64,000 bases of DNA. Source: Antedon mediterranea. Taxonomy: Eukaryota; Echinodermata; Crinoidea; Comatulida; Antedonidae. Below the pieces are notes generated by a model that was not told where the DNA came from, did not search any database, and saw only the letters and a program-made list of their open reading frames with translations. A program made the position numbers and the translations under genes. Below are positions 21,101 through 64,000 of the stretch, one piece after another. The stretch is taken from positions 26,762,412 to 26,826,411 of the forward strand of contig NC_092675.1 of NCBI RefSeq assembly GCF_964355755.1, read 5' to 3'. The first letter of the stretch is position 1. The number at the start of each line of letters is the position of its first letter.

Positions 21101-24100
21101 GAAAGTGCGAGTTGCGGGTCGGAAAATGCGAGTTGCGGGTCGGAAAATGCGAGTTGCGAGTCAGAAAATGCGAGTTGCGGGTCGGAAAATGCGAGTTGCG
21201 GGTCGGAAAATGCGAGTTGCGAGTCGGAAAATGCGAGTTGCGAGTCGGAAAATGCGAGTTGCGGGTCGGAAAATGCGAGTTGCGGGCCGGAAAATGCGAG
21301 TTGCGGGTCGGAAAATGCGAGTTGCGGGTCGGAAAATGCGAGTTGCGGGTCGGAAAATGCGAGTTGCGGGTCGGAAAATGCGAGTTGCGGGTCGGAAATT
21401 GCAAAAATAATTTTTCAAGGAGGTCGTACCATCCAAAAAAATAATACATGAACCAAACAATCAGTAAATAAATTACAATTTAAATTTTGTTTAGTTTTTT
21501 TCATATTGTGACCTGTTTAACAATTATAGACTAGTGATTCGAAATAGGTAGGTGAAATGAAGTTGTATTTTAGTTGTTGTTCAACGCGATGATCAAATAT
21601 ACAACACTTTTTAATTTTAATTTTTTATTTGATTATGTTTTTCCTTTGTAATGTATTATATGATGAATGTAATGGATGGTTGAAATGAACTTATTTTGTA
21701 TTTCAACACAAAACAATTATGTTATTGATACTTTATATTTTGAAATAATATAATTGTAAATATAGTAGATTAAAGTTATTATTTAATTTGTTTGCAATTA
21801 CTGATAATGATACAATTACTAATAATGATACAATAAATTATGTACATGTATTTTTGCCTTGTTAAATGAGAAAATAATAATAAATTGGTAAGAAAAACTC
21901 ACATTAAAAAGTACAGTTTGTATTGTTTACAGTATTTAGGTAAGATGATTAATGATGATTAAAAACAGACATGATGGTTGGAGTCATTAGTACTACTTTG
22001 TATTTATTTGTATTTTTGTATTTTGTATTAATATTTGTCCTCAGTGAGGAAATTCGGATTAGGCCCTCCACGGACCCACGGCAGCCAGCACCTACCAGAT
22101 TAGGCAATGAGAGTAAAGCATCTTGCCTAAGGATGCAATTAGTATGGTACAGATAACCTCGAACCCATGCCTATCACATGCTAGTCCGATATTACCATTA
22201 CACCATCACTCTCCAGTATATACAGCACCCGCCACGATTTCTAGACGGTCTCCCATCCAGAACGCAACCGGGCCCAACGTTGCTTAACTTCGGTCCCATA
22301 AACAGGGCAAGGAAACACATACCATACCTACAGATAATGGTCAAATTTTCAAAGCTATATTATTTTCTTAGAATCATAGTCAATTCTTTATGTTTATAAT
22401 ATTTTTTTGTTAAACATTTTCAGACAAACTGTACATAGATACATATAAATACATATGAATACAAAAAAAAAGAGAAGAAATACACAGTTTATTATGTGTA
22501 ACACCCATCAGCAAATCATGGAGAGGACCAATTAATGTATCTATTGAAATATAGTGCATCTCTCCAATTAAAATACATTCTGGAATCTAACCATATATTC
22601 ATAATCTACATTTTGTTTGCTTTTCATAATTTTGGAAAGAAGACTGTAAATTGTCAACCTAAAAAATTCATAAGAAGATGGAATATTGTTTTCTACAAAT
22701 AATTTTCTCTGACTTAGATATCGGATTGTCAACAACAACATGCGGAATAAACACAAATACATGCTTTAGTATGTACACGTACAGTACAGTAGGCATCTGT
22801 CAAATGTACTATGTGTATTTAAAGTAACTTTAGCAGGGTACAGATTTAAATACTGAAATCACTGGTTTGTTTTTAGAGAAAATATAACTTATAACTAAGA
22901 TAATTCAAATTTACTTGAATTGAATTGTTGAATTTAGGTGACAATAATCATTGATCTGCGCCCACAATTACATAGGAGAAGGAATTATTATTACTTATAT
23001 ACAGTATTGTTTGATGAAATGTGTGATACAGTAGGTGAAATGAAGTTGTATTTTAGTTGTTGTTCAACGCGATGATCAAATATACAACACTTTTTAATTT
23101 TAATTTTTTATTTGATTATGTTTTTCCTTTGTAATGTATTATATGATGAAATAAAAAAAAAAAAAAAAAAAAAAAAATATACAACACACTAAGAATGTAA
23201 AATTAAACTGTACATTTTGTATTGCAAGTGAAAAGATGCAGTAGAGTCGCATATAAAAAAACACTTGATCCTCAAATAAATGAATACCGTACACAGAATA
23301 CATTAGAAAGTACTGGAATCAACACAGTGTTGCTTGCTTATGAATTGGTTAAACTGACTGATTAAATGAGGAGATTGCACCCTTATTTATATCTTATTGA
23401 TATATGGGGGTGTCAATTATGACTTCATCGCATAACTTAGAGATGAGAATAGTTAGTTTTTAGATGAAACTTAAATGACATCATCATCTTTAAGAAGAAA
23501 TTATAGATGACATCATACCAACTTTAAGTCACAATCCCTTATTTGGTATAGTACACAACAAGTGTCCATGACAGGTAAATGTCATAACATAATGGGCCCT
23601 TTGGGAGTACCTAGTACAAAAGTCTGCATAGTGTAGTGCTGACTTATACAAGTAATAATATGTTAACAATTATATGAAAATGATTGTGTAAATAATAAAG
23701 TTAAAAGTAAAGTCTAAAAGTAAAAATGCATTAAAAATCATGTGGTGGGCTAAACTGTCAGGCTTCTTATATTTATTAGTAGGTAGCAGACACAAATCTA
23801 CAATGTGGACCTTTATCAAAGCAGTCATTAATTGTTTTAGTAAAAGATACCTGCCCCAGGGTGTGAGTTAATTGCTTCATGGAGACCATGATTAAGAATT
23901 CATTATCTTTTAAACCTACCACCAACCCCACCTCAGCTTCTCCTCCCAACCAAGATCCACATACCATACATCCCTGAGATGGTTCAAATGTAGTAAATTT
24001 TAAATCAGATTATTTGATACAACATTACCTCTAAATGCCAGTATTTCCTTATACATGAACATTCAAACAAACAAAAATAAGCGAGTTAAAAAAAATCTGC

Positions 24101-27100
24101 GAGTTAAAAAAAAATCTGCGAGTTAAAAAAAATCTGCGAGTTAAAAAAAATCTGCGAGTTAAAAAAAAATCTGCGAGTTAAAAAAAAATCTGCGAGTTAA
24201 AAAAAAATCTGCGAGTCAAAAAAAAATCTGCGAGTTAAAAAAAAATCTGCGAGTTAAAAAAAAATCTGCGAGTTAAAAAAAAATCTGCGAGTTAAAAAAA
24301 AATCTGCGAGTTAAAAAAAAATCTGCGAGTTAAAAAAAAATCTGCGAGTTAAAAAAAAATCTGCGAGTTAAAAAAAAATCTGCGAGTCAAAAAAAAATCT
24401 GCGAGTTAAAAAAAAATCTGCGAGTTAAAAAAAAATCTGCGAGTTAAAAAAAAATCTGCGAGTTAAAAAAAAATCTGCGAGTTAAAAAAAAATCTGCGAG
24501 TTAAAAAAAAATCTGCGAGTTAAAAAAAAATCTGCGAGTTAAAAAAAAATTTGCGAGTTAAAAAAAAAATCTGCGAGTTAAAAAAAAATCTGCGAGTTAA
24601 AGACAAATCTGCCAGTTACAAAACAAATCTGCCAGTTACAAAACAAATGCTTGATTTAAAAACATAAATGTTATATATTTATCAGTTACAATTGGATAAC
24701 CCTTCTCTTTTAACATTTTGGTGAGCCACTGAGTGTTCATTTCGATTTTAATCTTTTGGATTTTGAACTCTTTACTTTGTTTTGTTTTTGTCTGATGAAA
24801 TAAATGAAAAAATATACATATTTGAAAATTCTCACTCTGTTTATATATATATGTGTGTGTGTGTGGGGGGGGGGGGGGGTGGTATTAAGGTGGCACATAA
24901 GGAGATACTGGCATGTTTGCATTAGTAGTTATTATTTGTTTTTTGTACTAAAAACAAGTTAAATTAAATCAATGGCAATCACATAGATAAAAGAAGATAA
25001 AAGTAAGAGATAAACTGGTCACTCATCTGCAAACAATAATAAATCAAAAGGTATTATATTCCATTTTAAATTACTTGAGATTGTTTTACAATGGACCTAA
25101 GAGAGTCCTCCCAACCAACACCAACTCCTTCAAATGTAGTAAATTTTAAATCAAAGTAGATTATTTTGATACCTCACTACCTTAAATGCATGCCAGTATC
25201 TCCTTATATGCACACTTTACCCTGCACCCTTAAAAAGCTTCCGTCCATCCATGTACAAATTCCGGTTATCACTATCATCACTTTATCTCTCTTCTGCCAG
25301 AGAAAATCCAGAAGAATAGTGTTCAGAACATTCAGAATACAGATACAGGTAGTGGACTGCACTAAACACTTTAAGCATGTCAAAACACGGGTGTTTCGAA
25401 ACTAGACCCGAGACCAGAGACCAGAGACCCGAGACCCTATACGAAAAGGGAGACCCCACTATACGAAAAGGGAGACTCCACTATACGAAAATGGAGACCC
25501 CACTATACGAAAAGGGAGACCCCACTATACGAAAAGGGAGACCCAAATATACGAAAAGGGAGACCCAAATATACGAAAAGGGAGACCTAAATATACGAAA
25601 AGGGGTTGTATGGGGTAAAATCATATGTTACGGGCTCTTGGCCTATACTCATCTCGTGGAGTTTTTGCCTGAGAAACAGTGTTTCTTCACCAAGTGAATC
25701 TAATCTAGGCCTACCTCCAGTGCTTAGCCTAGAACTGTAGTAAGCACTGACTTAACTAAAACATAAACAAGTTGAGCATTCAGAAACAAATAATGCTAAA
25801 GTGAATAATAAAAAAATATTGTAAGCAGTGTAAAGAAAATAATTAAATTTCTTGCCATTGTCATATATGCCACAATAGGTTAATTTTGGTGATCATTCTA
25901 CACTATGTACAGAGTCTACACACCTGGGTGGGTTGTATCATGTCGCACTGGTCGCACATATGCGAGCAAAAATGCAGATCAAATATAATGATTAATTGTT
26001 TCATATCACATGCTCAGGCAATTTGTTTCTAACATCCACAATACAACCCACTCTATTTTGTTTAGGTAGGACTGGTGTATTTGACCCGCAACTCGCGTTT
26101 TTCGACTCGCAACTCGCGTTTTTCGACCCGCAACTCGCGTTTTCCGACCCGCAACTCGCGTTTTCCGACCCGCAACTCGCGTTTTCCGACCCGCAACTCG
26201 CGTTTTCCGACCCGCAACTCGCGTTTTCCGACCCGCAACTCGCGCTTTCCGACTCGCAACTCGCGCTTTCCGACTCGCAACTCGCGCTTTCCGACTCGCA
26301 ACTCGCACTTTCCGACTCGCAACTCGCACTTTCCGACTCGCAACTCGCACTTTCCGACTCGCAACTCGCACTTTCCGACTCGCAACTCGCACTTTCCGAC
26401 TCGCAACTCGCACTTTCCGACTCGCAACTCGCACTTTCCGACTCGCAACTCGCACTTTCCGACTCGCAACTCGCACTTTCTGACTCGCAACTCGCACTTT
26501 CCGACTCGCAACTCGCAACTTGCATTGAAGTAACACTCCTTCCTTTTAGTGTATTTTTGGTGTCTGTCCATGCATTACTTCAATGTCAATTTGATGTATT
26601 CCAAAAATAATTTTATTTACAAACTAAATATCATTATAATGTTACAATTGTCTATGTCTGGCCTTTACTCCTTGTCATCTGGCCAATTCAAACAGTATTT
26701 AGAAATGTTGTGGCGATCATTTTGGGAAATACTGTAATTCCTAGTCGAAGAGGATTTTATAAACGGAGAGGCTATAATACAATGTACATTTGATTCAGGA
26801 ATCCAACAACAGTCTTCTTTGGACAGCCAATAAAAGGTTTTCGCTGGCCCATGAGGATGCATAAATTTAATTTGATAATCCCCAAACTCTTCTGAGACAT
26901 CCACAACCAAACCAATCCATGGGACACCATCATAACTACAGCACACAAAATTCTGAAGTCTAATAATGGTGGGTTGTGTATCAGCAACAATTTAATTTTC
27001 ATCACTGAAAGATTCTTGAATCACAACCACATCCGGAGGGTTTATCTGGGTACTAAGTTTGTAGACCTGCATCTGTGCCAGAGAAACAGGAGCAAAGCGA

Positions 27101-47035: not shown

Positions 47036-50000
47036 AGATGATGAAATGATATTTCAACTTACCACCACAGTAATATCTATATAATCGGATTATACAAATG
47101 CTTATAATATTATTTTTTGTTAACAATCACAGAATATTTAGCCCTGGTTACGAGCGAAAAACGTCGCTCAATTCTTCAATAGACATGTCAACAGAAAGGT
47201 CACATTCCCACGATGCGCGTTGTTGGTTGACCTGGTGATGGTTGACACTTTGCTCTCATTCATTAATTTTTTGTCGTAAAAAAGATTTTCTTTTTCATTT
47301 GTGACGTTTGTAAAAAGACACAAAAGATCCCTAATCCACTATAAATTTAAAACATGACATATTAAACTTTTTTTTGTATTTATAATAATATTGAATAAAC
47401 CATAAAGAAACGGAATATTCTAATACTAAATAGAGGGCGGTAGGATTATTTTTTAATCAAAAGGTAGGCTACTTCTGACATCAGTCTAACTCCAAAAAGT
47501 TTTTAGTTTCTGCTTCCCACCGCATTTAAAAAACGAATTGAAAAAAAAGGTGGGAGAGGGGAGGGGACTGATGGAAAGCAAAATAATAGCAACTATGTAC
47601 TTAGACATACACATGGTTCTGCTTTTACACTCGGACAATAATTTTAAAAGTGAATGGAAATGTAATCACGTATAAATAGAATAGAGACGTAACTTGAAAC
47701 ACTAAACATTTGCCTCCTGAACGGTATACCTCCATGCTCCTTCATAGGTCTTTGGAAAAAAAAACCCGTCAGACTAATACTAATTTAGGTTTTTATGATA
47801 CCAACCGAGTATGTAGGGCCTACGCTACACAGGTCTTCCATAATATAATTCAACTACTTGATTACTATAATTCTTCTTTTGAATCGAATAATACAAACTC
47901 ATTCATTCATTAAGATACTAAAGTACCGATTAATTTTAATGCTCACACCTTCTTTTTCTAACACGGACAATGTAATGATACCGACAATCTTAACCTTTGA
48001 GAGTTGAATCAGATGGACATACTAGGGTCATTCTTCAGTAAGTGTCTAAAATCGTGTCCCGATACTTTGGTGGGATAGATACTGGAAATTCATCATTAAA
48101 AAATAAAAATTCTTGGCTTATATCATAATCAACATTATTGTAAATATAATTAATTACATAAACCGAAGATGATAACATTGATATTGTTAATTTTTATAAA
48201 AATGTTTCTGGTAACCCCCTAAAACCTCATGTCCCGATACATCTTCAATTTTATGATCGCCGTATATATTTGATAGCAGGACTTTTGTTATTGAAAATAT
48301 TGTAAAAAGTTAGTTAATCATGATTTCATGCGATTTTATTCTTCAAAATACATCTCTACATACATTAAATCTAAAATGTTAAAGTTTTTGTTTGGAAAAA
48401 GCTTGTCCCGCAGTTTCGTGTCATATCCGTCACATAATTAAAATGTGCCGTCTACAGGTTAATGAACGACGGGCAAAAAAATTGATTGTGCGTTGTAAAC
48501 ATCCGAAGATATTGAAATAAAACTAGCCGCATATCATTTTCAATAAAAGAGGAAAAAAGCCAATAAAACGAGGTTTTAGAAAAATTACAGTTGCGTACCT
48601 TTATTGAATGTCATATCCGAACGGTATAGACCTCATTAAATAATTATAATTTCTGGTTTTTTTTTCAACTGGAAGTACAATTTATTCACGGTATCTAAAG
48701 TATGTAGGCCTACTCCGTCTCCGCTGTCAGACATGCCTGATTTGAAACGATAAAGATGAGGAAATCTGTGAGAATGAGAAAAAGTCGTTTCAAATTAATT
48801 AATTAAATTTCAGTATATCACCGGGCGGTTTAGAATTAATGTTCTTTGCCTGATTTGTTTATATATATAAAAGTATCTCTTCGGAGATTCCGCCTCGTGA
48901 ATAAAAATCAAAGATCTTATATACTAAAGATGGGACACTCTCGAAATTCTACGTGCAATTCACACGGAGCTCATTTTATAGGGCGCCCTCTCGCTCAAAC
49001 AAGTAGATTTATTGATATGATCAGATATGTCTTCTGTATTGTAACTGAATACTCAATTTTTTTCATCACAATAATTGCGGTAATGTGCGATTAAATTATA
49101 AATGATAGACTTATTTCCTGTACTTTGTATATCTCTATTTGTTTTAATTACTGAATATTGTTGTTATTATTGAATGTTTATCATCATCCTCAAAATCATC
49201 ATCTAGGAGTAATCATCACTCACATCACTACTACTTATTTATGCGAGTCGGTCCCTCTGGTATTAACACTAAGCGCATCGTATTCCGTTTTTGTCCTTGA
49301 TATGTTCTTCCTTTTTATCCAGCAGCAAAACAGTGCATATTAGGAAAATATATTGTCAAATAGTGTGTTATAAACAATTAAAAAAGAACAAGAAGTCACT
49401 TTTTAAAATCACTCTTCGACTATTTTATTGCAGTAATTTTTCGGAATATATTTATAAACAATCATAGGCTTAAGCCTACAGGCATGACATGAAACAGATT
49501 ATGATAGTCAATTCTGAGACAATTCATACTAGGAATACATGTACCCATCATTCGCCATGACATTCATTTATTATTATAATTTATTTAAAACCTGAGATAA
49601 CAATTAGTTATGTTATAGTAGTCTCAGTTTAAAATTAACTCAATAACTATTGCGAAATTATGCACGGGCCACCCAGAGGAAATATAGAAAATGTAGAAAC
49701 ATTGAAATAATATTTACAATTATTCAATCATCATACCAGACCGTCGTAATGATCATCATTTCTAGCCGATAATGCACAGACCGGGGCGCGTACAGACCTC
49801 CTACAACTTTGACATACCTCATAAATGTTATATTTTAATTAATTTTTTACTCTTCTTCTTATCACTGATTATGTCTCTGTTGAAGAATATATGCGTAGGT
49901 TTACGTAAGTTTCAATTAGCAATGTTTCAATTGCTGGTGAACAAAGATTCAACTTCATACCAAATCTATGTAACATGGTAGCGATTTTTAACTTTATTTT

Positions 50001-50084
50001 TCTGCTGATGTTTGATTTATGTATAAGTATTTGTTAAAGTTAGAAACAAAAATCTTTTCACACAGATAGATAGGACATTAACTA

Positions 50085-50271
50085 CTTGGTGTGGTGGTGG
50101 ATTTGGGACATCAAATATTGTAGGGACTGCATTCCATACAATCTTCTTGTGACCATCAGTATTTGAGATTCTTCGAAATGAATATTGCACAAGTGGCAAT
50201 TACGGTGTAAATAGGAACTTGGTTTCGTTCTCAAATCCGCGCGTCGTGTGTTCTGGGCCCATTTTGCACAC
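50085..50271 (-). pseudogene. THAP zinc-finger domain relic (frameshifted)
   Basis: After a good acceptor (TTTACAG) the minus strand reads CAKWAQNTRRADLRTKPSSY and then CHLCNIHFEES, matching the middle of a THAP domain (Trp, then Cys-x-x-His with following Phe). The C-terminal THAP hallmark AVPTIF followed by PNPPP is in another frame, about 20 residues on, so one indel separates them. The first Cys pair normally lies in an upstream exon, which I did not find. THAP domains occur in P-element-like transposases and in host DNA-binding proteins; either origin is possible. Confidence 0.65.
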
Positions 50272-51955
50272 CTGTAAATTAATAATTGTCTAGTGAGTTT
50301 TTGCTTTATCATAATTAACGTTTACGTTATTATAGGACATCTACGTGCATGCTAATTGATTTTCAAATTGGTTAGGGCCTAAAATCAAATACTTAAGCCT
50401 AACCTAAAACCACTAACTAACTAACTAACGGTTGAATTTCATAAATATTAAGTATAAGATTCAATTAAAAATTGTTTGTTAGGGCTACTCAACGGATAAG
50501 TAATATAACCAGGGAACAATACAAATAGTGTAATTTCACTGTTATTATAACTAATGTCCTAGCCTAATAATGATAATATTAATCATTTCATGCGTTAATA
50601 TACTGTAATGTACGTAACGGCTAGTTAAATTAAACGAAATAAAATAACCATGAGACAGAAAGCAAATATTAACCATGAGACGGAAAGCATGAAATAATCA
50701 AGATCACAATTTGTTTATATTAAGTATTATTATTATTATTTGTATAATGTAAAAAGAGGGACTAGCCTAGGCCTACAGCGACATGCCAATTGGGCTTCTT
50801 GTAGTCTTTCGACCAAATTTTTACTTATATGCCAACAATTGTAATGATATTTATTTGGTCAATAAATGTTTCTTGAATTGAAAGTTTTAAAAATTGTTTG
50901 TTAAGGGTACTAAATTTTAAAGGATAAGTAATAAAACCAGGGAACAGTGAAATTAGTGTAATTTCACTGTTATATAACTAATGTACTAGGAGTAGTAGCC
51001 TAATAATGATAATAATAATCATTTCATACGTTTATTAATAATAGGCCTACCTAGCCTAGTTTATTAAGATATGTATAAATTGAATACAGTAAAGTAAGAT
51101 TAGTCCCCAGGCCTACATAGCATATGTTAAGGTGTAGGCTACTTATTTAATTACATAAATTTACCTGTTCTTGTCTGAGAAAATTGTAAAGCTTAAGTTC
51201 TGGGTTGGCCTTTGAATTGCTTTTACAATTAATTGCAGCACAGTACATCCCTCCACTTTTTCTCTTTTCATTCATTGTTTCTTAACCATACAAACTTTGG
51301 CGCGACTCCTCAATCCCATTTTCTAAAGAATACTGCGATCGCCACGCAAAAGTTCGTTACTTGTTTCAAAGACATGGAAAACGAACAGAGCATAGATTTG
51401 AGTGACGAACAAGAAACGGAGAAGTTTACATTTGTAGTCAGACCTAGCGAAGTAATAGATAAACCTTCAACAATTCGACGACGAACTTTGAGTAGATTTG
51501 CTAAATCACGAGTTAGTGCAAGAAAAAGTCAATCTAAGCGAACTGTTAACTTTTCGTCATGTTGCAAAGATTGGTCATGCCAACGTCAGTGTGAACGAAC
51601 AAGTCCCTCGAATAGTCCTGTTCGTCGCCTGGCCGCGAACGCACGAGAGCGTCGTCGAATGGATTGTCTGAACACGGCATTTGACGACCTTCGCGCAGTT
51701 TTGCCATCACTTGGAGGGAATCAGAAGCTGTCTAATGATACATTACACATGGCAATGACGTATATAGACTGTCACATATGTTCTGTTAATATGCTAATTA
51801 TATTTGTTTGTTATTTGCAAATTATGCAAACTACGTTACGCTCGGTGAAGTAATAAAACAGTAGTTGAATTAAAAGAACCGTGTTGACGAGTCACACTTG
51901 TAATATGGTGTCAGAATAGTGGAAATTCACTCAAAATGGAATCGTTGAAATTTAA

Positions 51956-52352
51956 GCCTAACTTGCTCCGGTGCACCCCATCTATGTTTAGGCCACCCGC
52001 TTTTGCATGTTAGAATTAGAGTTTGGAGTACCACATCTGCCTGTGTAGCTCGTATTGCTTCTTCAATTTTTGCTTTACTCATGGGCAATATTTCGTCTAG
52101 ACTATGCACCCTATATTTCAACTGTTCAAGGGGTTGGGCATCACGATCAACCTTATCAGGATATGCTCTGCTGAGAGCATCAGCTATGTACATGTACTTT
52201 CCAGGAACATACTTAACATCAAGCTCATACTTTATCAATTTGAGCAGCATTTGTTGTATTCTAGGACTAGCTTTATGGAGTGGTTTACGTGTGATTGTTT
52301 CGAGTGGTTTATGGTCAGTGTGAACTTCAACAGCTCGGCCATATACATATTG
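51956..52352 (-). pseudogene. Ty3/gypsy RNase H C-terminus and linker to integrase (fragment)
   Basis: Reading leftward from 52352, the fragment shows the RNase H signature VHTDHKPLE, then the C-terminal block VPGKYMYIADALSRA, typical of gypsy polyproteins. A linker follows (ATQADVVLQTL and GWPKH), which in full elements precedes the integrase zinc finger. The integrase itself is absent. The fragment is inverted relative to the LTR and RT of the same element. Confidence 0.85.
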
Positions 52353-53094
52353 GTAAAGTTACTCTAAATGTAAAAGTTGATAACATCCAAAATGATTATG
52401 ACTTCTTTATTACTAATGTTGATGGTCCACCTATACTTGGATTGAAAGCCTGTAGGGAGCTTGGTCTGATCAAACGTGGTAACAATATGATGTGTAGTGA
52501 TAATGTGATAAATAATAAATATGTACATGCACGAACTAAAGATTCTTTGATTCGAGAGAATCGTGATGTATTTACAGGTTTAGGTAAATATCAAGATCCT
52601 TATGACATCAAGTTGAAAAGTGGTGTTTCTCCAGTAGTCCATCCACCCCGCAGGGTGCCACTTAGTCTGCATACCAAGCTGAAAGAAAAACTTGACGATA
52701 TGGAGAAGAGGGGCGTGATTAAACGGACCGACAAACCAACAGATTGGGTCAACAGCCTAGTGATAGTGGAGAAACGAGACGGATCCTTGAGGTTGTGTTT
52801 GGATCCACGTGATTTGAACAAAGCCATTAGACGTGAACATCATATGATACCGACCTGTAAGGACGTAGTGAGTCAGCTGTCAGGTAAAATACTTTTCACT
52901 GTCTTTGACCAGAAAGATGCGTACTGGCAAGTTCCTCTTACTGACGCTAGCGCAGATATATGTACATTCAATACTCCTTTTGGACGATACAGTTTTCTAA
53001 GAATGCCATTTGGTATCTGCAGTGCTAGTGAGGTGCTACAGAAACGAAACCAGCAAATATTTGGTCATATACATATTGGTGGTATTTGTGTATA
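52353..53094 (+). pseudogene. Ty3/gypsy protease end and reverse transcriptase N-terminal half (fragment)
   Basis: The fragment opens with the end of a retropepsin-like domain (PILGLKACRELGLI). The RT fingers and palm follow: MEKRGVIKRTDKPTDWVNS, KRDGSLRLCLDPRDLN, the first catalytic Asp in VFDQKDAYWQVPL, and FNTPFGRYSFLRMPFGI. It stops just before the YxDD box, so it cannot encode an active polymerase. The 15-bp stretch CATATACATATTGGT occurs at both ends (52340-52354 and 53066-53080), marking the breakpoints. Confidence 0.85.
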
Positions 53095-53166
53095 GAAAAG
53101 CAGATCGCCAACATAGACGAGCTGATAAAACTTCTAGAGAGTACTTCTAAGAAAACTATAAACTGA

Positions 53167-54423
53167 ACGTAAGTTGGATCAAACATCAAAACAATTTTGT
53201 TGTTAATCTAATTTTTTTTGCTGTGAATGGTTGCTACAACAAATGGAGGTGTTTTTTTTGCAGGAGTACACACATTATCAACTATCTGTTTTACAACACA
53301 TGCAGTAGTAAAGGAATATTTTAAGTTTAAAAACAATTCCCTGTTTTTTAAAGACGCCTATTTGTAATTGACTTACACGGACCTACCTATAGGCCTACTG
53401 TGTTTTTCTATGTAATAAATGTATTGCATTTTACAATATGAATTCCGAAATATGAATATAATATATAGTTATTGTGTTCTGAGATGTACTTTTGAGTTCT
53501 CTCCTACTATTACAGAACTACATACGCGGTGTACCGCAAACTTTATTTCAACATCGTCGTGCAATCCTTCAAACATAATGTGGATGGTTTTAACTTTCTT
53601 AACTATATTAAGATACCACCAAGACTGTGTTAATTCAATGCAGATTACATAATCAAGGCTATAGGCCTATAAACGCCTTCAAGATAATTCCGTATTTTGT
53701 TCAATTTAATAACACGTTTTTGCCTTGCTTTTCATAGAAATGTGCGCTATAATGGTAATATTTGTATATATTTTTTTTCAAATTAAATAAATCATTTTCC
53801 AAACAATAGACATGTTATTATGTTATGTTCATAAATATTTGGGGAGGAGGAGGAGTGTTGGTACCCGGTCTGGGGCGAATATACCTGGTCAAACTGTATA
53901 GCATTATTAGAGACAATGTAATATTATTGCATATAATAATACGTTTCTTATTTCAATAAAAATTAATTTTAATTCACCATAACACATGAGAATAAGAATT
54001 TTGACCTTCAGCCAATATTAACATTATTTGTGTCCAGATATATTATAGAATAAGCAACAACATATCGCATAATAATTTGCTAAAGTTAATTTTAATGATG
54101 ATTTGTTACATTTCTACTACTCTCTTTCTACTCACATAAGCATATTAGTATATACATTAATTAAATTGTGATACATCCGCGTTCTAGATACCTTGGATTA
54201 TTCATTTTCGAGAAATATCGGTCTTCAACAAGTTTAGAGATTTTGTAAACTATACGTCATAGGTCCTAGTAATTACAATTTTGTTGACCACTGCTCGTGG
54301 GAAAGTAATGAAGTTAAAATACAAGATGGTCATTCATTCATTTGGTCAAAATCAATGGGTAAATAATAATAATAACGAATATGAATTCTATTTTAATCCC
54401 TATGTATTTGTATATTATTTATT
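53167..54423. other. Convergent 3' flanks of the bHLH and sulfatase genes
   Basis: AT-rich, no recognised coding sequence. AATAAA signals are present near 53414 and 53787. Confidence 0.5.
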
Positions 54424-57400
54424 TTATGGTACTGGTTCCCATGGGTCGAAGACACAATCATTTCCATTCAGGCATGGGTCAGCTTGTTCTCGCTGAGGAG
54501 CTGGAAAAAATACAGGTACTGACTGGTTGTGATAGTTGTAGAGTTTAGTTAATAAGAACTTAACAACCGTAGGATACGCTTCAGACAGGTCATTCATTTC
54601 AAGTGGATCTTTCCTGACATTGTACAGCCAAACAATTTGATCGGAATGGCTACTTTGCCCAATTATTGTGGTAAGGCCGGAATCGGGAGGTGCTATCCAA
54701 TCTGTTTGCCCTGTAAAAAAATAAAGTAACGGCGTAATAGAAGGAAAATACATCATTATTTAGACCGACACGATTAGAGGAAACCAAAATGTTTCGTTTC
54801 TTTTTCCATCAACACTATTTTTTTACTCTACAGCTCACTATGTCGGTCGGTTGGTCGGATGGCCGGTCGGTCGGTAAACACTAACTCAAATTTGAGCACG
54901 CGACTTCAGCCGAGCCATGTATATGGCCTTGTTGTATTTATGTGTTCGAAACGGGGAGAGAGAGTTATGGTGGGGGGGGGGGGGGGAGTGTCTATAGGCG
55001 AGGGAAAGAAAGAGAAACTACCTCTGTTATGGAGGAGTGATTTTGATTTGGGGAGTCTAGTAATTAGGTATAAAAATGACCCGAATTATGGGAAGATTTC
55101 AGACTACTTTTGATAGAGGTATCAACATGACCGTGAAAGTTTTAAACTAAAGGAGTGGGATCGAGGAGAGGTACCCGCTTTTCTGGGGAGAGGTACCCGC
55201 TTTTCTGGGGCGGGTATTTCAGTACCATTGCAAAACTCACCAGTATTTCCAGTCAAAAGCTTCCAGTCTCTGTATCGTATTGCAGCCTCAATACTGACAT
55301 TAAATAGGCTTATATCGACAATCCAATCTCGACCACCAGAAACTACATTCAATGGATTGATGTTGTGCAAAAGTTCAAGACGACTAGAACAAGTACCATA
55401 CCTGTTGATTGAGATTGTCAAAATAACTAATAACACATAAAAGTGGATGTTAAGGAGCCTTTGAATTACGACGGCTACCTCTCCTGGGTTTAGAATTTAT
55501 ATTTATTTATTATAAAATTTGAAGCTTTGTAACAACAATAATAACCCTACTTATTGATCTTGAGCTTGGACCTACTTTGAACATGGAGCTACCTTTTGAA
55601 CCCGGAGCTACCCTTTGAACATGGGGCTGCTAACCGTTGAACCTGGAACTACCGGTACCCTTCGTAACCGTCGTAAAATTTGAAGCTTTGTAACAACAAT
55701 AATAACCCCCTTATTTCAGCAAAACAATAGAAACTTTAAATCATGAGTTAACCTTTGAATCTGGATCTAGCCTTTGGACCTGAAGCTAACCCCTTTGAGT
55801 CTGGATCTACCGGAACCTGGACCTACATTGAACATGGAGCTACCCTTTGAACCTGGATCTAACCTTTGAACCTGGATCTACCCTTGAACCTGGATCTACC
55901 CTTTGAACCTGAAGCTACCCTTTGAACCTGGATCTACCCTTTGAACTGAGGCTAACCGTTGAACATGGAACTACCGGTACCCTTTGAACCTGGACCTACA
56001 TTTAACATGGAGCTACCCTTTGAACCTGGATCTACCCTTCGAACCTGGATCTACCCTTTGAACCTGGATCTACCCTTTGAACCTGGATCTACCCTTTCAA
56101 CTCGGAGCTACCCTTTGAACTTGGAGCTACCCTTTGAACCTGGATCTACCCTTCGAACTTGGAGCTACTTTTGAACCTGGCGCTACCTTTTGTTTTTGTT
56201 TTTTTTATAATGCCAATGACCATAACCACCAGGCTACAACATCATCTACCTTTCGGAACTGGAGCTACCCTTTGAACCTGGAGCTATCATTTGAACCTGG
56301 ATCTACCCGTTGAACCTGGATCGACCATTTAAACCTTGACCTATACCCCTTGAACCTGTATTGACAATTGAACCTGGACCTATACCCTTTGAACCTGGAT
56401 CTACCCTTTGAATTTTGAGCTACCCTTTGAACTTTGAGCTACCCTTTGATCCCACACACCAGATACCAGTAATATTATGTCATTAAATATTGTCAATTTG
56501 GGAAATGACTGTAATGTTTTAAGAATCATACTTGATAGTATTCCACTGGTTGATTCCATCCAGTGGTTTTGTCCCGTTTGTGTTCCATCCAGCTATACCT
56601 TCAACAATGGTGGGAAACCAATCACTAACGTGGATCAGTCCATTGTTAATAGTGCCCTTAACTTTTACCGAAAGTAATGGACTATGGACAAATCCAACAG
56701 CTCGGATACCTCCTTCGAACAGCGAGAACTTTAAACCACGTAATGGCCAGTTATTACCCTCACTTCCTCCAACGCCACCATTATCTAGAATGATAATATC
56801 TATTATTTAAATTATCTATTCTGTTATTTCGAAATCAAACAAAAATGTTGCTTTACTTTGGATTAGGCGATAACAACGTAATACTCACCACTAGAAAATA
56901 TTATGATAGTGTCTTCATAGATTCCAGTTTCTTTCAATGCATCTATGACCTAATTAATATTATTAAATCATAATATAATTTTTAAATATCATAATATTCA
57001 AAACAATAAATGTGATTTCAAAACACATCATCGTACATACAGATATCTTACCCTCACTTCCGTGAATGTGGGAAGTCTACAGGACCCGACATGACACCAG
57101 CAAAATGACACATAGGCGCAATATTGGTCATATAAAAAAAAACTGTCAAAAAACTATCAAATACCGGCTTACTAAGTGGTTGATATTCTAGAAAGGAAGA
57201 TTGGAAAGAGGGATATACATAGTAACATTAGAGAGGAATAATGTTTATTTCCATGTCCTGGATAAGCTGCTAACAGGCTGGCTTAAGGAAAAGAAGATCA
57301 TCAGACCGAAGAGTATCATTGAACAGTACACTCATAGTGATTCTTGACAGGGAATCACTATGGCGTCTATATTAGACTGATCAAGAAGTTATACATCCAT

Positions 57401-59522
57401 TTCTTTCATGGTAAAGAAATGTCAGAGAGCAGAACAAAGTAAAAAGATGCTGAATGGGTAAAGAACTGCCAGTCAGCAGAACCAAGTAAATAAGATGCTG
57501 CATGGGTAAAGAACTGTTATAAGGCAGAACCAATTACAATTATGAGTAGGCCTAATACCGTACTGTAAATGACATTATAATCTTGTACGGTGTAATTCAT
57601 CCAACATGTACGCAAAATCGTTTAATTCCTTACAGGAAAAAAGCAATAAAACAACTTGCGGCAGTTCAGTTTATTACAAGTGTTACAACAGCATAATTAT
57701 AATATTATTATACGTTTTAAATTACAAAATTCGACGCTTATTACAAAGTGTCAAATAATAAAAATTTTAATAAGGAACCTTAGTTTGAGTAACATGTCAA
57801 ATTACCTTTCCAATGCCTTCATCTAAACAACTCACCATCGCGGCATAAGAAAGTCTGTTTTCATCAGTAAATATACCGCGCAGTGGTTCTTTATACTCAT
57901 CTGGTACTTCGAGTGGAGAATGTGGTGCTTGGTACGACAGGTACAAAAACAAAGGCTGGGAAAAAATGAGTGTTATGTTATTAAATATTTAAATTAATAC
58001 CGTATAAGTAAATGGCCTGGACTTTTACATTGATGAGAGATAGGCATGGGTGGGTTGGGTGGTAATAGTTGCCTTACCTTGTCTTCCGTTTTGTTCTTTA
58101 TTATGTCTATGGCTTCATCAGTAAAAACGTGAGTAGAGTATGTACCATTGTACTCAAATGCAGGTAAGTAGTTTCGATGGAAGTCGTAGCCATCAACCAG
58201 TGGTGGTAGAGATTTGTGACTATAGTGAGTGCCGAAACCAAGATACAACCCTAAACAGAACATACGTTTTGTTTGATTACATTAAGTTATGAAATGTGCA
58301 ACTAAATTGTGTGACGTTATTTAAAAGATATTTAATATTAAAAAAAATAATTGTCATGTTTACAATTAATTAATTAATCACTGTCATCACCATGGTAATT
58401 ATTATCTTTATATCCGGTAATGTGCATATCCAGTTTAGAAATTTTATTTCTCAGATTCGGATACCTTTTATTACACACTCTTGCACTTCGCAAAGGTTAA
58501 GAAAAAAGCAGAGGTAACCATGCGAACTAGATCATCAACTGTTACTAGGAGCAGTTTTATAGGTCCTATTCTGCAACACTAATAATAATAATAAATAGAT
58601 AATAACATTAACTCGATCATATAGGTTAAGTATTATTCGATCTGTAAGATTACGTTGGTTTTACTATTTCATTTACTTGTATAATTCGCTTCTTATTTAA
58701 GACTTAAATGTTATATTTGATACTTTTTGTTTTTTTATTGACTTGTAAATGAACAGTCTTATAAACGCGTGCCGCTGATACAAAAGCGTGTGTTTAATAA
58801 AGTTTATCAGTTTATCAGTATACGCTGCCGCTCCTGTAATCCAATGGACGTCAATCGAGCGACATAATATTGTTTATTCTTTCGGTAACTACAATTATTT
58901 TAGTACAATTTTGTTGAGCGTGTCAAATGGCCGAGCGATTAAACCATGGGCGTTTTACCGTACTTAATATCGGCATGGGTTCGAGGCCGATTCTTACACT
59001 TACTTTGTATCATGTGATCCACAATTAAAATAAAGGTATAGGATGTATGTTATAATAGAGGGTACTTTGGATAACTTTATGACGTTATCCAAATTCCTTC
59101 ACTTGCACTGATGAAGGGCTAGTGTTGCCCGAAAGCTCTGCTAACTTTTCTGGCTGTTTTACTTTATCGTTTTGATTTAGCTTTTCGCTTTTTTGTTGTA
59201 TCTCCATTGAAACCTCCAGCCACTGATACCCACAGCATTGTCATTTTTCAGTAATTTGCCTTTGGATTTATAATAGTAGTTTAGTTAGATGCAATAATTA
59301 TAAGGTGCGGTATTACTATGCAAATCAATATTTACCCAAGAATGAATCGAAACCCCTGTTATTTGGAAGACATGCCTCATCATAGTAACCTAGATGCCAT
59401 TTTCCTACCAGGTGAGTAGAATAGCCAGCTTCTTTCATCTTCTGAGCTAAAGTTATTTCGTCAGTTGGTAAGCAAGATGGTATCGAATCTGTGAAAACGC
59501 CATGCTGTAATCCTGTACGAAT
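54424..59522 (-). CDS. Arylsulfatase B-like sulfatase, 5' end missing
   Basis: Seven exons in transcript order: 59336-59522, 58078-58250, 57806-57955, 56889-56949, 56532-56784, 55241-55401, 54424-54710. All have GT-AG borders and phases agree, giving 423 residues to a TAA stop. Family blocks, in order, are [21 protein letters not shown] (the conserved active-site Lys and His), [15 protein letters not shown], the metal-binding SDNGG split over exons 4 and 5, [47 protein letters not shown] and the C-terminal SVPVFFPAP. Arylsulfatase B removes 4-sulfate from N-acetylgalactosamine in lysosomes; invertebrates carry many paralogues. Human ARSB has 533 residues, so roughly 110 are missing, including the signal peptide and the C-x-P-S-R box whose Cys becomes formylglycine. 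That exon should lie beyond 64 kb, past the LINE block, unless it was lost. The exons seen are intact, so the gene could be functional. Confidence 0.9.
55560..56450 (+). repeat. 19-bp minisatellite in a sulfatase intron
   Basis: The unit is CCCTTTGAACCTGGATCTA with variants (GAGCTA, CATGG, CTTGG). About 35 degenerate units, interrupted around 56190-56230. It fills most of the intron between exons 5 and 6. Confidence 0.9.
56950..57805. other. Sulfatase intron with coding-like debris
   Basis: Besides the tandem repeat at 57413, the plus strand at 57245-57350 reads like a decayed protein ([18 protein letters not shown]) ending in a stop; family not identified. Confidence 0.4.
57413..57535 (+). 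repeat. ~50-bp tandem repeat in a sulfatase intron
   Basis: Two and a half units with GGGTAAAGAACTG, AGCAGAACCAAGTAA and AAGATGCTG. Sits between sulfatase exons 3 and 4. Confidence 0.7.
58917..59000 (+). mobile_element. Leu-tRNA SINE head fragment
   Basis: TGGCCGAGCGATTAAACC (A box) and GGGTTCGAGGCCG (B box) match the SINE head at 27222; the body is missing. Confidence 0.65.
59094..59270 (+). mobile_element. Penelope-like terminal repeat with hammerhead core
   Basis: The copy starts near CACTTGCACTGATGAAGG and continues for ~160 bp with GCCCGAAAGCTCTGCTAAC. The same block without the first motif is at 45908-46072, over 90 percent alike by eye. The combination of CTGATGA, a stem, GAAA and TA is typical of Penelope-like element repeats. 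No Penelope RT or GIY-YIG domain is in the window. Confidence 0.55.
59108..59145 (+). ncRNA. Candidate minimal hammerhead ribozyme
   Basis: CTGATGA (59108-59114), stem II GGGC/GCCC with loop TAGTGTT, GAAA (59131-59134), a 2-bp stem III (GC/GC with loop TCT), then TA at the expected cleavage site. Stem I pairing is not convincing by eye, so activity is uncertain. Confidence 0.45.
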
Positions 59523-60129
59523 CTAAATAAAGAAAACCAAACGTTATTCTAAAATATATCGTTTGTCTTTCTTAATGCGTCGATAAAAAAAATTATTAAA
59601 CACCACCAAAAAAAAAAGGAATAAACTTGCTTCATCTGAAGGTTCATTTTGTTTGTCTTCGAGTAGCACATTATTAATACTATTTCAGGTAAATTCTACC
59701 CACACTGGCATGCTTTGGCAGGTTTTATTGACGTTTTTTAATAACTATCATCGTGTGACTGTTACTGCACTGCAGATGGATAGAATCAAGTAATTCTTTT
59801 TTTATATTTCCTTCACTTTATTCCAAATCACAATTTTTTTACTTAACAATTTTAAAACAAATGCAATAATATGAAAAGGAATAGGGCAACCACGAACAAG
59901 CAAAGCTTTACAACTGTGGCACCCTTTAAAAATATAAAACAAATTATTTTAATAGTATGCATGAAAGAATCGAAATTTACTAAAAACAGTTTTTTTTTAA
60001 TAGTACTGCAAGATAATAAATATGAAACTATACTAACTTATATATACATATAATTAATAGCATTGATTACATTTTTTCTCTGCAAAAAAGACAGTTTTCT
60101 TCTTGACACAAATACTTTATAAATGATAA

Positions 60130-62446
60130 CGTTCAATATAAATACAATCTAACTTCTTCTTAAATAGTGATGTATTTCTACATTGTTTTAGATCATCCGA
60201 TAGATAAGATTGTTCCTCACCTTAGACCCTGCAGTATACGAGAAGCCTTGACGGCCAACATTTGTATGCTTCAGATCTATTACAAGATTGTTTTTATTGC
60301 GCGTGTTATAATCATGATACGAGTCGAAGGTGTGGAAAAATCCATAAAATGACTCTGGTAATTTTCCATTTTTGTAGAGGAACATTAAATTTGCTACATT
60401 TTTTTCATATAGATCGAATATGTTTAAGGTATTAGTTTTAATGAATAATGGAGAAGATGGATGTAGGTAGTGGACTTTACATATTATTCGGAGGGCCTTT
60501 TTTGTAAAACGTGAATTCTATTTAAATTATTATACCAGTACTCCACACAGTAATGACATATGTAATGATGGGAAGGATAAGGGGTTTATAAATAATGAGC
60601 AATATTTCATATGGTAGTATGGTTTTTAAGAGATTCATAGCTCCAATAATGGCAGAAATCTTACTAGTGATTACATTAATATGCTGTAAGAAATTTATTT
60701 TTTCATCAAGTATAACTCGACTCCTAAAAATGTTGTTTGATAAACTCTTTCAATAACGTCTTGATCAATAAAAATGTTTACATGAGATGTATCAATAGTA
60801 CTATTTCTACCACTAAAAACCATAAATTTGGTCTTTTTAGTATTTATGGTAAGTTTGTTTGCCTTAATCCATAAATTCAATTTTGTTAATTCATTATTCA
60901 TAATATCAATAGCTTCATTTACATTGTTGTGTTGTAAGAAAACACTTGTGTCATCGGCAAACATTATTAGTTGTGTACTGGTACACACTGATTGCATATC
61001 ATTTACAAACATTAGGAATAATAAAGGACCCAAGATTGATCCTTGAGGGACACCGTATTTTATCAACTTTTTGTCGGAATTTATTCCGTCAATAGTTACG
61101 AATTGTTCTTTTTCGCTTAGATAACTGCAGAACCATTTATGTTCAATACCTCTGATCCCAAAATAGGGTAATTTTTTAGTAAGTATGTTGTGGTCTATCG
61201 AATCAAAGGCCTTAGATAGGTCGAGAAATACGCCATAAACAAACTGCTTATTGTCAATTGCCATTGATATTTTCTCAATTCGTTCATACACCTTTGACAT
61301 ATACAAGATAGTATGGATATAGGCCTATAATTTCGTATATCGTCTCTAACGCCACTCTTATATACCGGTATAGTTTTTGCCAATTTAAGTTTATTTGGAA
61401 AGACTTCTGTGCTGAGTGATAGATTGACTAAATACGTAACAGGTTTAGTTAATATATCAGCATTTTTATTTATGTATTTTTCCTCGATATCATCGTGGCC
61501 TGGTGACTTGCTTGTGTTCAGGTCCGATGGGTATGTTTTGACGTCATACTCTGTTAACGGAGTAAAGAACATGGAGTTTTGTATGCTATAATTATTCATG
61601 TAGTCTATTGGATTTACATGTGGGTAATTTTCATTTGCCTTTTCTGCCATTTCTTCACCAATACTATTAAAATAAGAATTCATGACTTCCGCTTTATCAG
61701 TGGGAGTTTCAAATGTTTCAGAACGATATGTCACTTTTGCTGGGATTTTAGATTTTTTATTTCTTCCCAGAATAGCATTTCATGTCATTTTTTCGTTTTT
61801 CGAAGTCCTCTTTATAATAACTTATTTTTCTTTGTCTAATGATTGTTGTTAGTTTGTTTTTGTATTTTTTATATTTTGATTTATTAACACTAGAAGGATT
61901 CTTTTTATATTTGATATATAATTTCTCTTTAGTATTTAGAGACCGTTATATACCATCAGTCATCCAGGGTGACCTTATTCTATCGGTTTTCAACCTAACC
62001 TTTTTTAACGGGAAACATCTATCAATTAGTGTTGTAATTGTATTTGAGAATCGATTATATGATACATTTGCATCAGAGCAATTTAAGACATTATCCCACT
62101 GTTGATTTTGTAACTCATTTCGAAATAATTGATTTTGTACAGTCGAAAAGTTACGCTTAAAAACATATGTGCTTGTTTTACTTTCCGTATATTTTTGTGA
62201 TTTATCAATGCTTATTACTGGACAATGATCAGATATATCACTAAACAAAATATTAGTTTCAATGTCATGAGTGTTTGGAGAGTTTGTATAAATGTTGCCT
62301 ATTATTGTTGACGTTTCCTCAGTAATGCGCGTCGGTTTATTTACTAGGGGTATAAATGATTCTGAGATCATAAAATCGACATGCTCTTGGACATTACCAC
62401 AGAGTTGTACATATTTAGGTCAACATTGTAGCCGCCCATGAGATAA
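60130..62446 (-). pseudogene. CR1/L2-group LINE, 5' part separated, several frameshifts
   Basis: Reading leftward: end of an AP-endonuclease domain (YLMGG near 62430, FIPLVNKPTRI, DISDHCPVI), RT with NYRPISILS, VFLDLSKAFDSIDHNIL, GVPQGSILGPLLFLMFVNDM and the catalytic FADDTSVF. A C-terminal block with HDYNTRNKNN ends near 60188. Frames change at about 62395, 61290 and 60700 and stops intervene, so it is inactive. The mode of insertion places it in a sulfatase intron or just 5' of the visible exons. The exact clade is uncertain. Confidence 0.8.
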
Positions 62447-64000
62447 GTTTTTTTCTCTTTTTTTTCTCTTTTGTGGTTAACCACCACCTTTATTTATTCT
62501 TTCATACAAATTTCGTTCACATTTCATTTTCATACATTAAATTTCTGTTTTCTACTTTTTTCGTTATTTTCTGATTTTTACTCTTTTAACCTTTATACAT
62601 ATAGTGGTTTGATTATATGCATACAAAAACTGTACATCTTAAAATACAAAAATGGATGCCACTTATAAGTTACAACATGCCTAGTGTATTCATATCTTTT
62701 AAAATATATTTAAACTGAATCCAGGGATTCTGGCATACAGGTTTTTTAAGTTCAGTTTTAATTTTAATTATGTATATGACGTACACAGCTATTGAATACA
62801 ATTGGTTTTTTAATTGACATTTACTTCCTAACAGGAGTTCTTAGAACGAGCTACTGCTGTTATTTAGCTTTTTAAAAATATTGTCAATTTTTTCCCATAG
62901 TATTTGATTACGTCTACAGTAATAAAACATATGTTTTTCGTATTCAATGACTCCACAATTGTTACATATGTTATTATTTTTCAGTTTCCAGTTATACAGT
63001 TTTAGATTTGTAGGTACAACTCTATTTAGTAATTTGTAATTCAATTGGGCAAATTTCTTAATTTTTTCGTTTTTCACTTTTCTTTTCCAGACATCACACC
63101 ACTTGATATCTTCATTAAATATGTTATTCCATTTAAGTATGCTTTTCGGGGGAATAAAAACATTATTAACAAAGTTAGAATAAACATCTTTTGTTGTCAT
63201 CTTAATTATATTGTTGATATTGTATTCCAGATTCACATTCATATATTGGTTCATATTTGGCATATTATGTTTAATTATACTTAACCACTCTTTTGGAATA
63301 GCTCTGGTTAGAGAAACATATTCAGCTATCCAGTTTTTCTTAATACGTAATTGTTTAATTATTTCTATAGGTTTCATTAGACGATTGAAAATAATTATAT
63401 CTCCAATTTGATTAAAACCTGCATCTATCCAGTTCTTAAAGAATAGTGGTTTGTTTCTATATTTAATATCATTGTTGTTACCCCATAAGTTTTGCTTTAT
63501 CACTTCTTCATACTCGTTAATTGTACCTTCATTATTCATATTATTAAATTCAACACAACACTTTAGAACATTATAATAAAAAGATGGTATAGTATCTAAG
63601 CCCATGTTATTTTGAAAATTGATATTTGACATACTTAAAATTAGTTGTTCGGTTCCAAATTTATTAAAATAGTATAGTGGTAAGATTTTCCATCTTACGT
63701 GTTTTCTACACAGTAATTTTCTTGCCCATATCATTTTCAGAGAGTTTATGTGTAATGCGAAATCAGGCATACCTATGCCCCTTTTAATCATCTTACCGAT
63801 TAAAGTTTTTCTTTTTATTTTTTCTGTTTTTCCATTCCATAAAAAGTTATATATCAATTTATTTATTTTAAAAATAACATCATCTGGTACATCAATTATA
63901 CATGCATTGTTTGTTAGTTTAGACAAAGCTAAACTTTTTAAAATGGTAACTTTGCCAAAACAGGTTAGGTTTCTTCCTTTCCATCTATTGAGTAGCATTT
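62447..64000 (-). mobile_element. L1/Tx1-like LINE 3' portion with poly(A), cut by window edge
   Basis: The minus strand carries an open frame from the window edge to 62841 (385 residues seen) corresponding to the C-terminal region of an L1/Tx1-type ORF2. It begins LNRWKGRNLTCFGKVTIL, with NFLWNGK and a terminal zinc knuckle ICNNCGVIEYEKHMFYYC. A 3' UTR and an A-rich tail (62447-62475, read on the minus strand as A runs broken by G) follow. The tail abuts the endonuclease part of the other LINE, so it inserted there. Confidence 0.8.
62841..64000 (-). CDS. L1/Tx1-like LINE ORF2 C-terminal region (partial at window edge)
   Basis: A single uninterrupted frame with no stop, rich in Asn, Lys and Ile. 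It covers the region downstream of the RT palm: WARKLLCRKHVRW, LFFKNWIDAGFNQIGDI, WCDVWKRKVKN and the C-terminal CxxC...H...C knuckle of LINE ORF2 proteins, whose role in retrotransposition is known but poorly defined. The RT catalytic domain lies beyond the window. The lack of stops over 1.16 kb suggests a young copy. Confidence 0.8.
   Translation of the reverse strand, partial: MLLNRWKGRNLTCFGKVTILKSLALSKLTNNACIIDVPDDVIFKINKLIYNFLWNGKTEKIKRKTLIGKMIKRGIGMPDFALHINSLKMIWARKLLCRKHVRWKILPLYYFNKFGTEQLILSMSNINFQNNMGLDTIPSFYYNVLKCCVEFNNMNNEGTINEYEEVIKQNLWGNNNDIKYRNKPLFFKNWIDAGFNQIGDIIIFNRLMKPIEIIKQLRIKKNWIAEYVSLTRAIPKEWLSIIKHNMPNMNQYMNVNLEYNINNIIKMTTKDVYSNFVNNVFIPPKSILKWNNIFNEDIKWCDVWKRKVKNEKIKKFAQLNYKLLNRVVPTNLKLYNWKLKNNNICNNCGVIEYEKHMFYYCRRNQILWEKIDNIFKKLNNSSSSF

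Follow-up and report, generated by a model that had tools for sequence, protein, structure and literature searches.

Aberrant HIV proviruses, in the cases set out in PMC5041404, mostly have one normal end, with host DNA, or viral DNA of either orientation, attached at the other. Complex LTR elements of the Triticeae, as they are presented in PMC1950507, contain three LTRs, are flanked by 5-bp duplications and have been attributed to strand switching in reverse transcription. As for DNA transposons, the account of Pack-TIRs in PMC8277862 explains them by gap filling in broken TIR elements of animals, 56.9% of the cases given there lying within 15 kb. The locus described here has likenesses to each of these systems. 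It lies in the window, by which we mean the whole stretch of 64,000 nucleotides that was analysed, and consists of part of an Atonal-family bHLH gene interrupted by retroelement DNA. We consider it very probable that a parent gene was copied with its 3' flank to a place 2.23 Mb away and truncated, and that a rearranged one-LTR cDNA of a Ty3/gypsy element was later inserted into helix 2 of the copy.

The pentamer TAGAC occurs at 51765-51769 and at 53114-53118 (both on the plus strand) and encloses an insert of 1,344 bp (51770-53113). Upstream of the insert, an open reading frame runs from the ATG at 51374 to the residues TYID at 51769, and past the second TAGAC the frame resumes in phase as ELIKLLESTSKKTIN followed by a stop codon (53119-53166); the initial annotation had noticed both the repeat and the resumed frame, and both were found as it described them. 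In its current state the frame reads 27 residues into the LTR of the insert and stops at 51851-51853. Flanks and protein were searched against the whole of a single assembly (354 Mb, 18 contigs). The upstream flank had a single further match to the gene part, at C6:24584385-24584788 on the same chromosome, with 98.8% identity, and in the protein search this paralogue had 98% identity over 132 residues, the 15 remaining matches having 35-54%. The downstream flank matched the next bases, C6:24584784-24586045, the overlap between the two matches being exactly TAGAC. At this place the paralogue has TATATAGACGAGCTG, in which TAGAC stands a single time and no insert is present, and both flanks align to it (uninterrupted at C6:24584385-24586485), which establishes the insertion and its 5-bp duplication. 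The TAGAC repeat is no chance match and the insertion is real; a local assembly error may be present within the insert. The intact version that had been suggested to lie elsewhere exists as this uninterrupted copy, but it is a paralogue on the same chromosome and not an allele.

The paralogue is part of a parent gene at C6:24584249-24584836, 2.23 Mb from the window copy, whose open frame has 195 codons from the ATG at 24584249 to a stop codon ending at 24584836. Its HLH domain is complete (PF00010, 70.7 bits, profile positions 1-52 of 53), and the half in the window scores 55.4 bits. The best relative of solved structure is NeuroD1 (2ql2, E 2.8e-11), to which parent residues 131-188 align without gaps, YIDELMKLLES lying over YIWALSEILRS through helix 2; this alignment bears out the proposal that the insertion interrupts helix 2. 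In a tree built from the parent, 18 other bHLH stretches of this genome and the four PDB domains of NeuroD1, TWIST1, TAL1 and ASCL1, the parent had no supported partner (0.31). When three sequences that we take to be the domains of ATOH1, ATOH7 and ato were added, the parent joined them with a support of 0.95. The identity of the parent is 64-65% to these Atonal domains versus 53% to NeuroD1. The parent would accordingly be named an Atonal-family bHLH gene, a label that rests partly on these three added sequences. An NCBIfam search with the parent gave nothing useful.

The window holds a 5'-truncated duplicate of this gene. Homology to the parent starts at 51369, inside parent codon 46; the part upstream of the insert (51369-51769, plus strand) is the one that is 98.8% identical to the paralogue, and the part downstream (53119-53166, plus strand) comprises, according to the frame and the paralogue alignment, the end of helix 2, the C-terminal tail and the stop codon. 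The first ATG of the window copy, at 51374, is parent codon 48, and the first 45 codons of the parent are missing together with its 5' flank. Since the copy begins inside parent codon 46 beside a TIR terminus, it has no parental promoter or N-terminus. There is also a 3-bp in-frame deletion at about 51734/51735, which changes LSKYD to LSND (SKYD to SND), with loss of the K-Y pair. The 18 other bHLH stretches that were read from this genome all lack a gap at this site, indicating that the 3-bp loss belongs to the window copy. Compared with a working Atonal gene, which has a full frame, a start and a motif of the LSKYE type, the window copy falls short, and its frame is also broken by the insertion. 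Because it is 5'-truncated and has a further in-frame lesion, the window copy was probably not a working gene when it was hit. Its ATG may still start a shorter protein.

These results do not agree with two statements of the initial annotation. Both gene halves had been said to lack other lesions; compared with the paralogue, the copy lacks 45 codons at the start of the frame and 3 bp within LSKYD. A conserved regulator itself had been thought to be disrupted; the copy that was hit is a truncated duplicate, and the intact 195-codon parent stands 2.23 Mb away. That the window gene is the resident Atonal gene was likewise ruled out by the intact parent, the 45 lost codons and the lost 5' flank. 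A recent clean insertion that segregates in a working Atonal gene, with the other allele intact, would agree with the youth of the element, the resumption of the frame and a reading frame that is otherwise nearly intact, but with an intact parent elsewhere, and with 45 codons, the 5' flank, the KY pair and (as described below) the right LTR missing, we regard it as very improbable.

We also considered whether the duplicate, expressed from the transposon, could have worked as a shorter bHLH gene, in which case the insertion would have removed or altered a real function. An open reading frame at 51233-51853 starts within the left part of the surrounding TIR transposon and runs in frame through it into the gene, and only 2 substitutions are present in 401 bp of the coding sequence. 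In the duplicates as a whole, 3 of 449 coding sites differ, compared with 96 of 3,086 non-coding sites (3.1%) in three blocks (P 0.0018); the non-coding count leaves out the blocks at 59.56-59.80 kb and 67.08-67.34 kb and one at 54.9-58.5 kb, which is more diverged and consists in part of tandem repeats. However, the adjoining non-coding stretch of about 0.7 kb has 7 mismatches at 716 sites and is about as similar as the coding sequence (Fisher P 0.75), so that the low coding divergence is not evidence of selection. The case for purifying selection on the duplicate is therefore weak. With the conserved K-Y pair also lost, a shorter working gene seems unlikely, although the duplicate may have had a spell of function after the duplication. 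The window copy is a probable pseudogene that was further broken, its intact parent remaining.

The duplication extends beyond the gene into its 3' flank. Within the window the flank occupies 53167-59798 (plus strand, matching the parent locus), and the duplication continues beyond the window at 66635-67336 (window numbering), matching the parent up to 24593085; of the parent locus it covers 8.7 kb or more. The 6.8-kb stretch between 59798 and 66635 is absent from the parent. This stretch (59798-64000 and 2.6 kb beyond the window) is found only in the window copy of the duplication, and minus-strand open reading frames between 60695 and 63998 resemble, by eye, LINE-type reverse transcriptase (FADD motif). 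In the other direction the co-linear homology ends at 51369; the four stronger matches further upstream lie in the wrong order or orientation, and the longest of them, 644 bp, is a high-copy repeat with 2,035 first-look candidates genome-wide. A mis-placed allele (haplotig) was rejected as the identity of the second copy, since co-linearity stops at 51369 and the copies also differ by the 6.8-kb stretch. The gene at C6:24584249 appears to be the ancestral copy, as judged by its complete frame and motif.

Immediately to the left of the duplicate lies the left part of a TIR DNA transposon (48909-51366, plus strand), recognised by genome matches and with the terminus CAAAGATCTTATATAC. Among the best 40 of 100 candidates, it has at least 26 matches of 600 bp or more elsewhere, with 82-94% identity. 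No open reading frame of at least 110 amino acids lies wholly inside 48909-51366. Three other copies of the transposon extend 87-94 bp further, to the element end, and the missing last 90 bp or so are found 28 kb away at 79373-79470 (C6:26841784-26841881), in the same orientation and about 96% identical to another copy. At its outer end each part adjoins the octamer ATAAAAAT, which is the same on both sides without a mismatch; the repeat is A-rich and some chance of coincidence remains. Both ends were found in 3 of the 13 other copies inspected, with an exact 8-bp repeat, a 7-bp repeat and, in the third, a repeat consistent with 8 bp as judged over 5 visible bases only; in the other ten, the stretch that was read showed no left end. 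The two parts thus probably belong to a single element, which encloses 28 kb. As a separate observation, about 59 bp just left of the element (48909) recur at 79789-79847.

At the left junction, CAAAGA (51367-51372, plus strand) is the same as the TIR terminus. Its last four bases, AAGA, are common to the parent gene, where they also stand just before Met-48; the duplicated segment thus starts with a 4-bp identity, through which it is joined to a TIR terminus. The inner borders of the two transposon parts have a 7-bp repeat of transposon sequence (CTTGTTT). A second copy of the transposon, inverted (76835-79375), closes the inner stretch at the right, and at the left the stretch begins with CAAAGA. 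Besides the duplicate, the 28 kb hold this inverted copy, the 6.8-kb stretch and about 9.5 kb of further sequence. The locus resembles the Pack-TIRs of PMC8277862, as characterised there, in that a segment copied from the same chromosome lies between two parts of one TIR element and has a 4-bp identity at its left junction. It differs from them, as far as that account goes, in that the parts stand about 28 kb apart, with a second TIR copy and a LINE-like stretch that the parent does not have in between, and in that the source is 2.23 Mb away, whereas 56.9% of the cases there lie within 15 kb. The target of the insertion, a gene fragment inside a split TIR transposon, is somewhat unusual, and it is a case, easily read from the sequence, in which part of a developmental gene was copied into such a transposon.

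To describe the insert, we use the coordinates (e) of a copy of its family at C8:25238030-25242628, in which e1 is the first LTR base. The insert consists, in order, of e1-189 sense, e3055-2657 antisense, e1321-2049 sense and e2671-2624 antisense, after which TAGAC follows directly. The single LTR (51770-51905, plus strand, 136 bp, TGTCAC...TGTAATA) is identical to both LTRs of the C8 copy. According to the mapping to that copy, the start of the internal region follows at 51906-51958 (plus strand, to e189), and the TGG directly after the LTR is presumably the primer-binding site. The first inverted piece (51956-52354, minus strand) corresponds to the RNase H region (Pfam RT_RNaseH, 24.4 bits against a cut-off of 24.8), and the next, sense piece (52345-53072, plus strand) to the RT region (Pfam RVT_1, E 2.3e-7). 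The second inverted piece (53066-53113, minus strand), which in the element adjoins the first, forms the right end ...GCCAACA; past this point the antisense of the C8 copy continues with TCTCC, without any LTR sequence. Against the PDB, the RT piece matched the RT/RNase H of 4ol8 best (E 1.5e-14) and the Ty3-G Gag-Pol of 7q5b second best (E 6.2e-14), and on these similarities we assign the family of the insert to the Ty3/gypsy LTR retrotransposons, with an RT related to that of Ty3.

The insert resembles Ty3/gypsy LTR retrotransposons in its LTR, its Ty3-like RT and RNase H and the 5-bp duplications of the regular copies of its family, and differs from them in having one LTR, internal pieces of mixed orientation and a non-LTR right end. 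A regular insertion has two LTRs, each forming one end; here there is one, and the right end is antisense e2624. The initial annotation had spoken of a clean TG...CA element. The left end is indeed a true LTR start, but the right end is antisense internal sequence whose CA is coincidental, and one LTR with three re-ordered internal pieces does not make a clean insertion. Nor can TG...CA be the paired ends of the element, since the LTRs of this family run TG...TA (ending TGTAATA).

The family was represented in the assembly by 37 LTR matches at 25 loci, and 19 of these loci, all but C6:15298651, C7:13693201, C4:11325258, C7:2747224, C7:8662680 and C10:10723132, were inspected for a target duplication. 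An exact 5-bp duplication was present in all nine regular two-LTR copies (the C8 copy and eight others with regularly oriented body pieces), in the one deletion copy and in three of the four solo LTRs, that is, in 13 of the 14 regular copies overall; at the fourth solo LTR, C3:3897029, four of the five bases agree. A 5-bp target duplication is thus usual for the family. Among the five irregular copies examined, the window insert is the only one with an exact duplication. It was looked for and found absent at the inverted-body copies C11:9498603 and C6:12586312, and it was also absent at C4:17997949 (5'-truncated) and C5:2447790 (LTR plus leader), suggesting that irregular structures in this retroelement family arise with no visible sign of integrase. 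That the window copy is an exception among them may be due to chance.

Some of these loci have structures of their own. At C11:9498603-9502677 both LTRs have one orientation, the body (e578-3366) is inverted between 7-bp inverted identities and there is a further deletion. The copy at C6:12586312-12591371 is a mosaic of e1-563 in sense, a repeated 3' stretch, 48 bp of LTR and antisense e3137-1097, with a 2.1-kb insertion inside the last piece. At C4:11325189-11325519, 3' internal sequence (e4343 onward) precedes a single LTR and the leader (to e215) follows it, an order that a one-LTR circle or a tandem would give. The older copy at C5:2447790-2447972 (91.6% identical) ends at e187, near the e189 junction of the window insert, which may be chance.

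The junctions between the pieces of the window insert have overlaps of 3 bp (GCC), 10 bp (ACATATTGGT) and 7 bp (CATATAC). When sense and antisense positions of the C8 copy were joined at random (200,000 trials), 5.6% of the joins shared at least 3 bp, 0.042% at least 7 bp and 0.001% at least 10 bp. Both inner junctions lie within 15 bases of each other on the antisense template. Strand switching in reverse transcription, followed by integrase accepting an AACA end, would be the most likely mechanism, at about an even chance. In the proposed history, the Atonal-family gene was copied with its 3' flank, in a segmental duplication, to a place 2.23 Mb away, and the copy, starting in parent codon 46, lies between two parts of a TIR transposon, both as read directly from the present arrangement; later, in an order suggested by the divergences, a rearranged cDNA of a young element with 136-bp LTRs entered helix 2. 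During reverse transcription the enzyme would have left the antisense template at short identities, copied about 0.73 kb of sense RT sequence and returned within 15 nt. Integrase would then have joined both ends, taking ...AACA instead of the usual ...AATA; since the 5-bp duplication is the family's own, integrase most probably made both cuts.

A possible though less probable course is that both LTR ends integrated normally, the right end was lost before repair and end-joining patched the gap with pieces of element cDNA. Loss and patching would account for the exact TAGAC, the one good LTR and the filler of mixed orientation. Truncated copies without a duplication do occur in the family, HIV proviruses with one normal end and the other joined to viral or host DNA are among those presented in PMC5041404, and a capture of retrotransposon-derived sequence at breaks in mouse zygotes is described in PMC4516963. 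On the other hand, the long junction identities (10 bp and 7 bp) and the return to the point of departure, within 15 nt, fit one strand-switching polymerase better, and the host duplications in PMC5041404 are, among the cases given, usually much longer than 5 bp. Regular insertion of a two-LTR element, followed by rearrangement in place with loss of the right LTR, seems quite unlikely: inverted and deleted bodies are known among the other copies, but a breakpoint would be needed exactly between the last LTR base and an intact TAGAC, and nothing predicts this.

With strand switching as the preferred mechanism, the insert can be set against the two described kinds of irregular retroelement integration. 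The HIV proviruses, as given in PMC5041404, are alike in having one normal end with extra viral sequence in either orientation opposite, and differ in that their host duplications are usually large, compared with exactly 5 bp here. The Triticeae elements, as given in PMC1950507, are alike in that their structure is laid to strand switching and that 5-bp duplications flank them, and differ in having three LTRs and two LTR ends, compared with inversions and one LTR here. The somewhat unusual feature of the window insert is its exact 5-bp target duplication beside a non-LTR end; our keyword search of the open-licence literature found no paper on an insertion with one LTR in which an exact duplication accompanies a non-LTR end.

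As regards age, the RT piece differs from each of four young copies by four substitutions, of which three recur in all four comparisons; with one of these copies there is a 1-base gap in addition. The other pieces are each identical to at least one copy, so that 3 differences over the 1,344 bp are private to the insert. By this measure the duplication looks several times older than the insertion, even when half of the 3.1% non-coding divergence is assigned to each copy. The broader claim of an LTR-element insertion with a target duplication in helix 2 of a bHLH sequence of the Atonal family is supported, as is the claim that it is young compared with what surrounds it.

Because the target is a truncated duplicate and an intact gene is present, the insertion is ordinary in its consequence and of little import as a gene disruption. 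Its value lies in a datable, anchored integration of a cDNA with one LTR end and a regular duplication, for which an empty-site paralogue is available in the same assembly. It also serves as a warning that an apparently clean target duplication and TG...CA in raw sequence can conceal an insert of mosaic structure, and that one may take a duplicated copy for the resident gene.

Two further features of the window lie well upstream of the locus. At 20713-21451 and 25996-26610 there are minisatellite-like tracts that are open in several frames, with repeats such as CELRVGK and ASCGSEN, and the two tracts have a common unit in opposite orientation. The segment at 12618-13254 is a very numerous young repeat, with 39 other full-length copies of 99% identity among the best 40 of 2,035 candidates.
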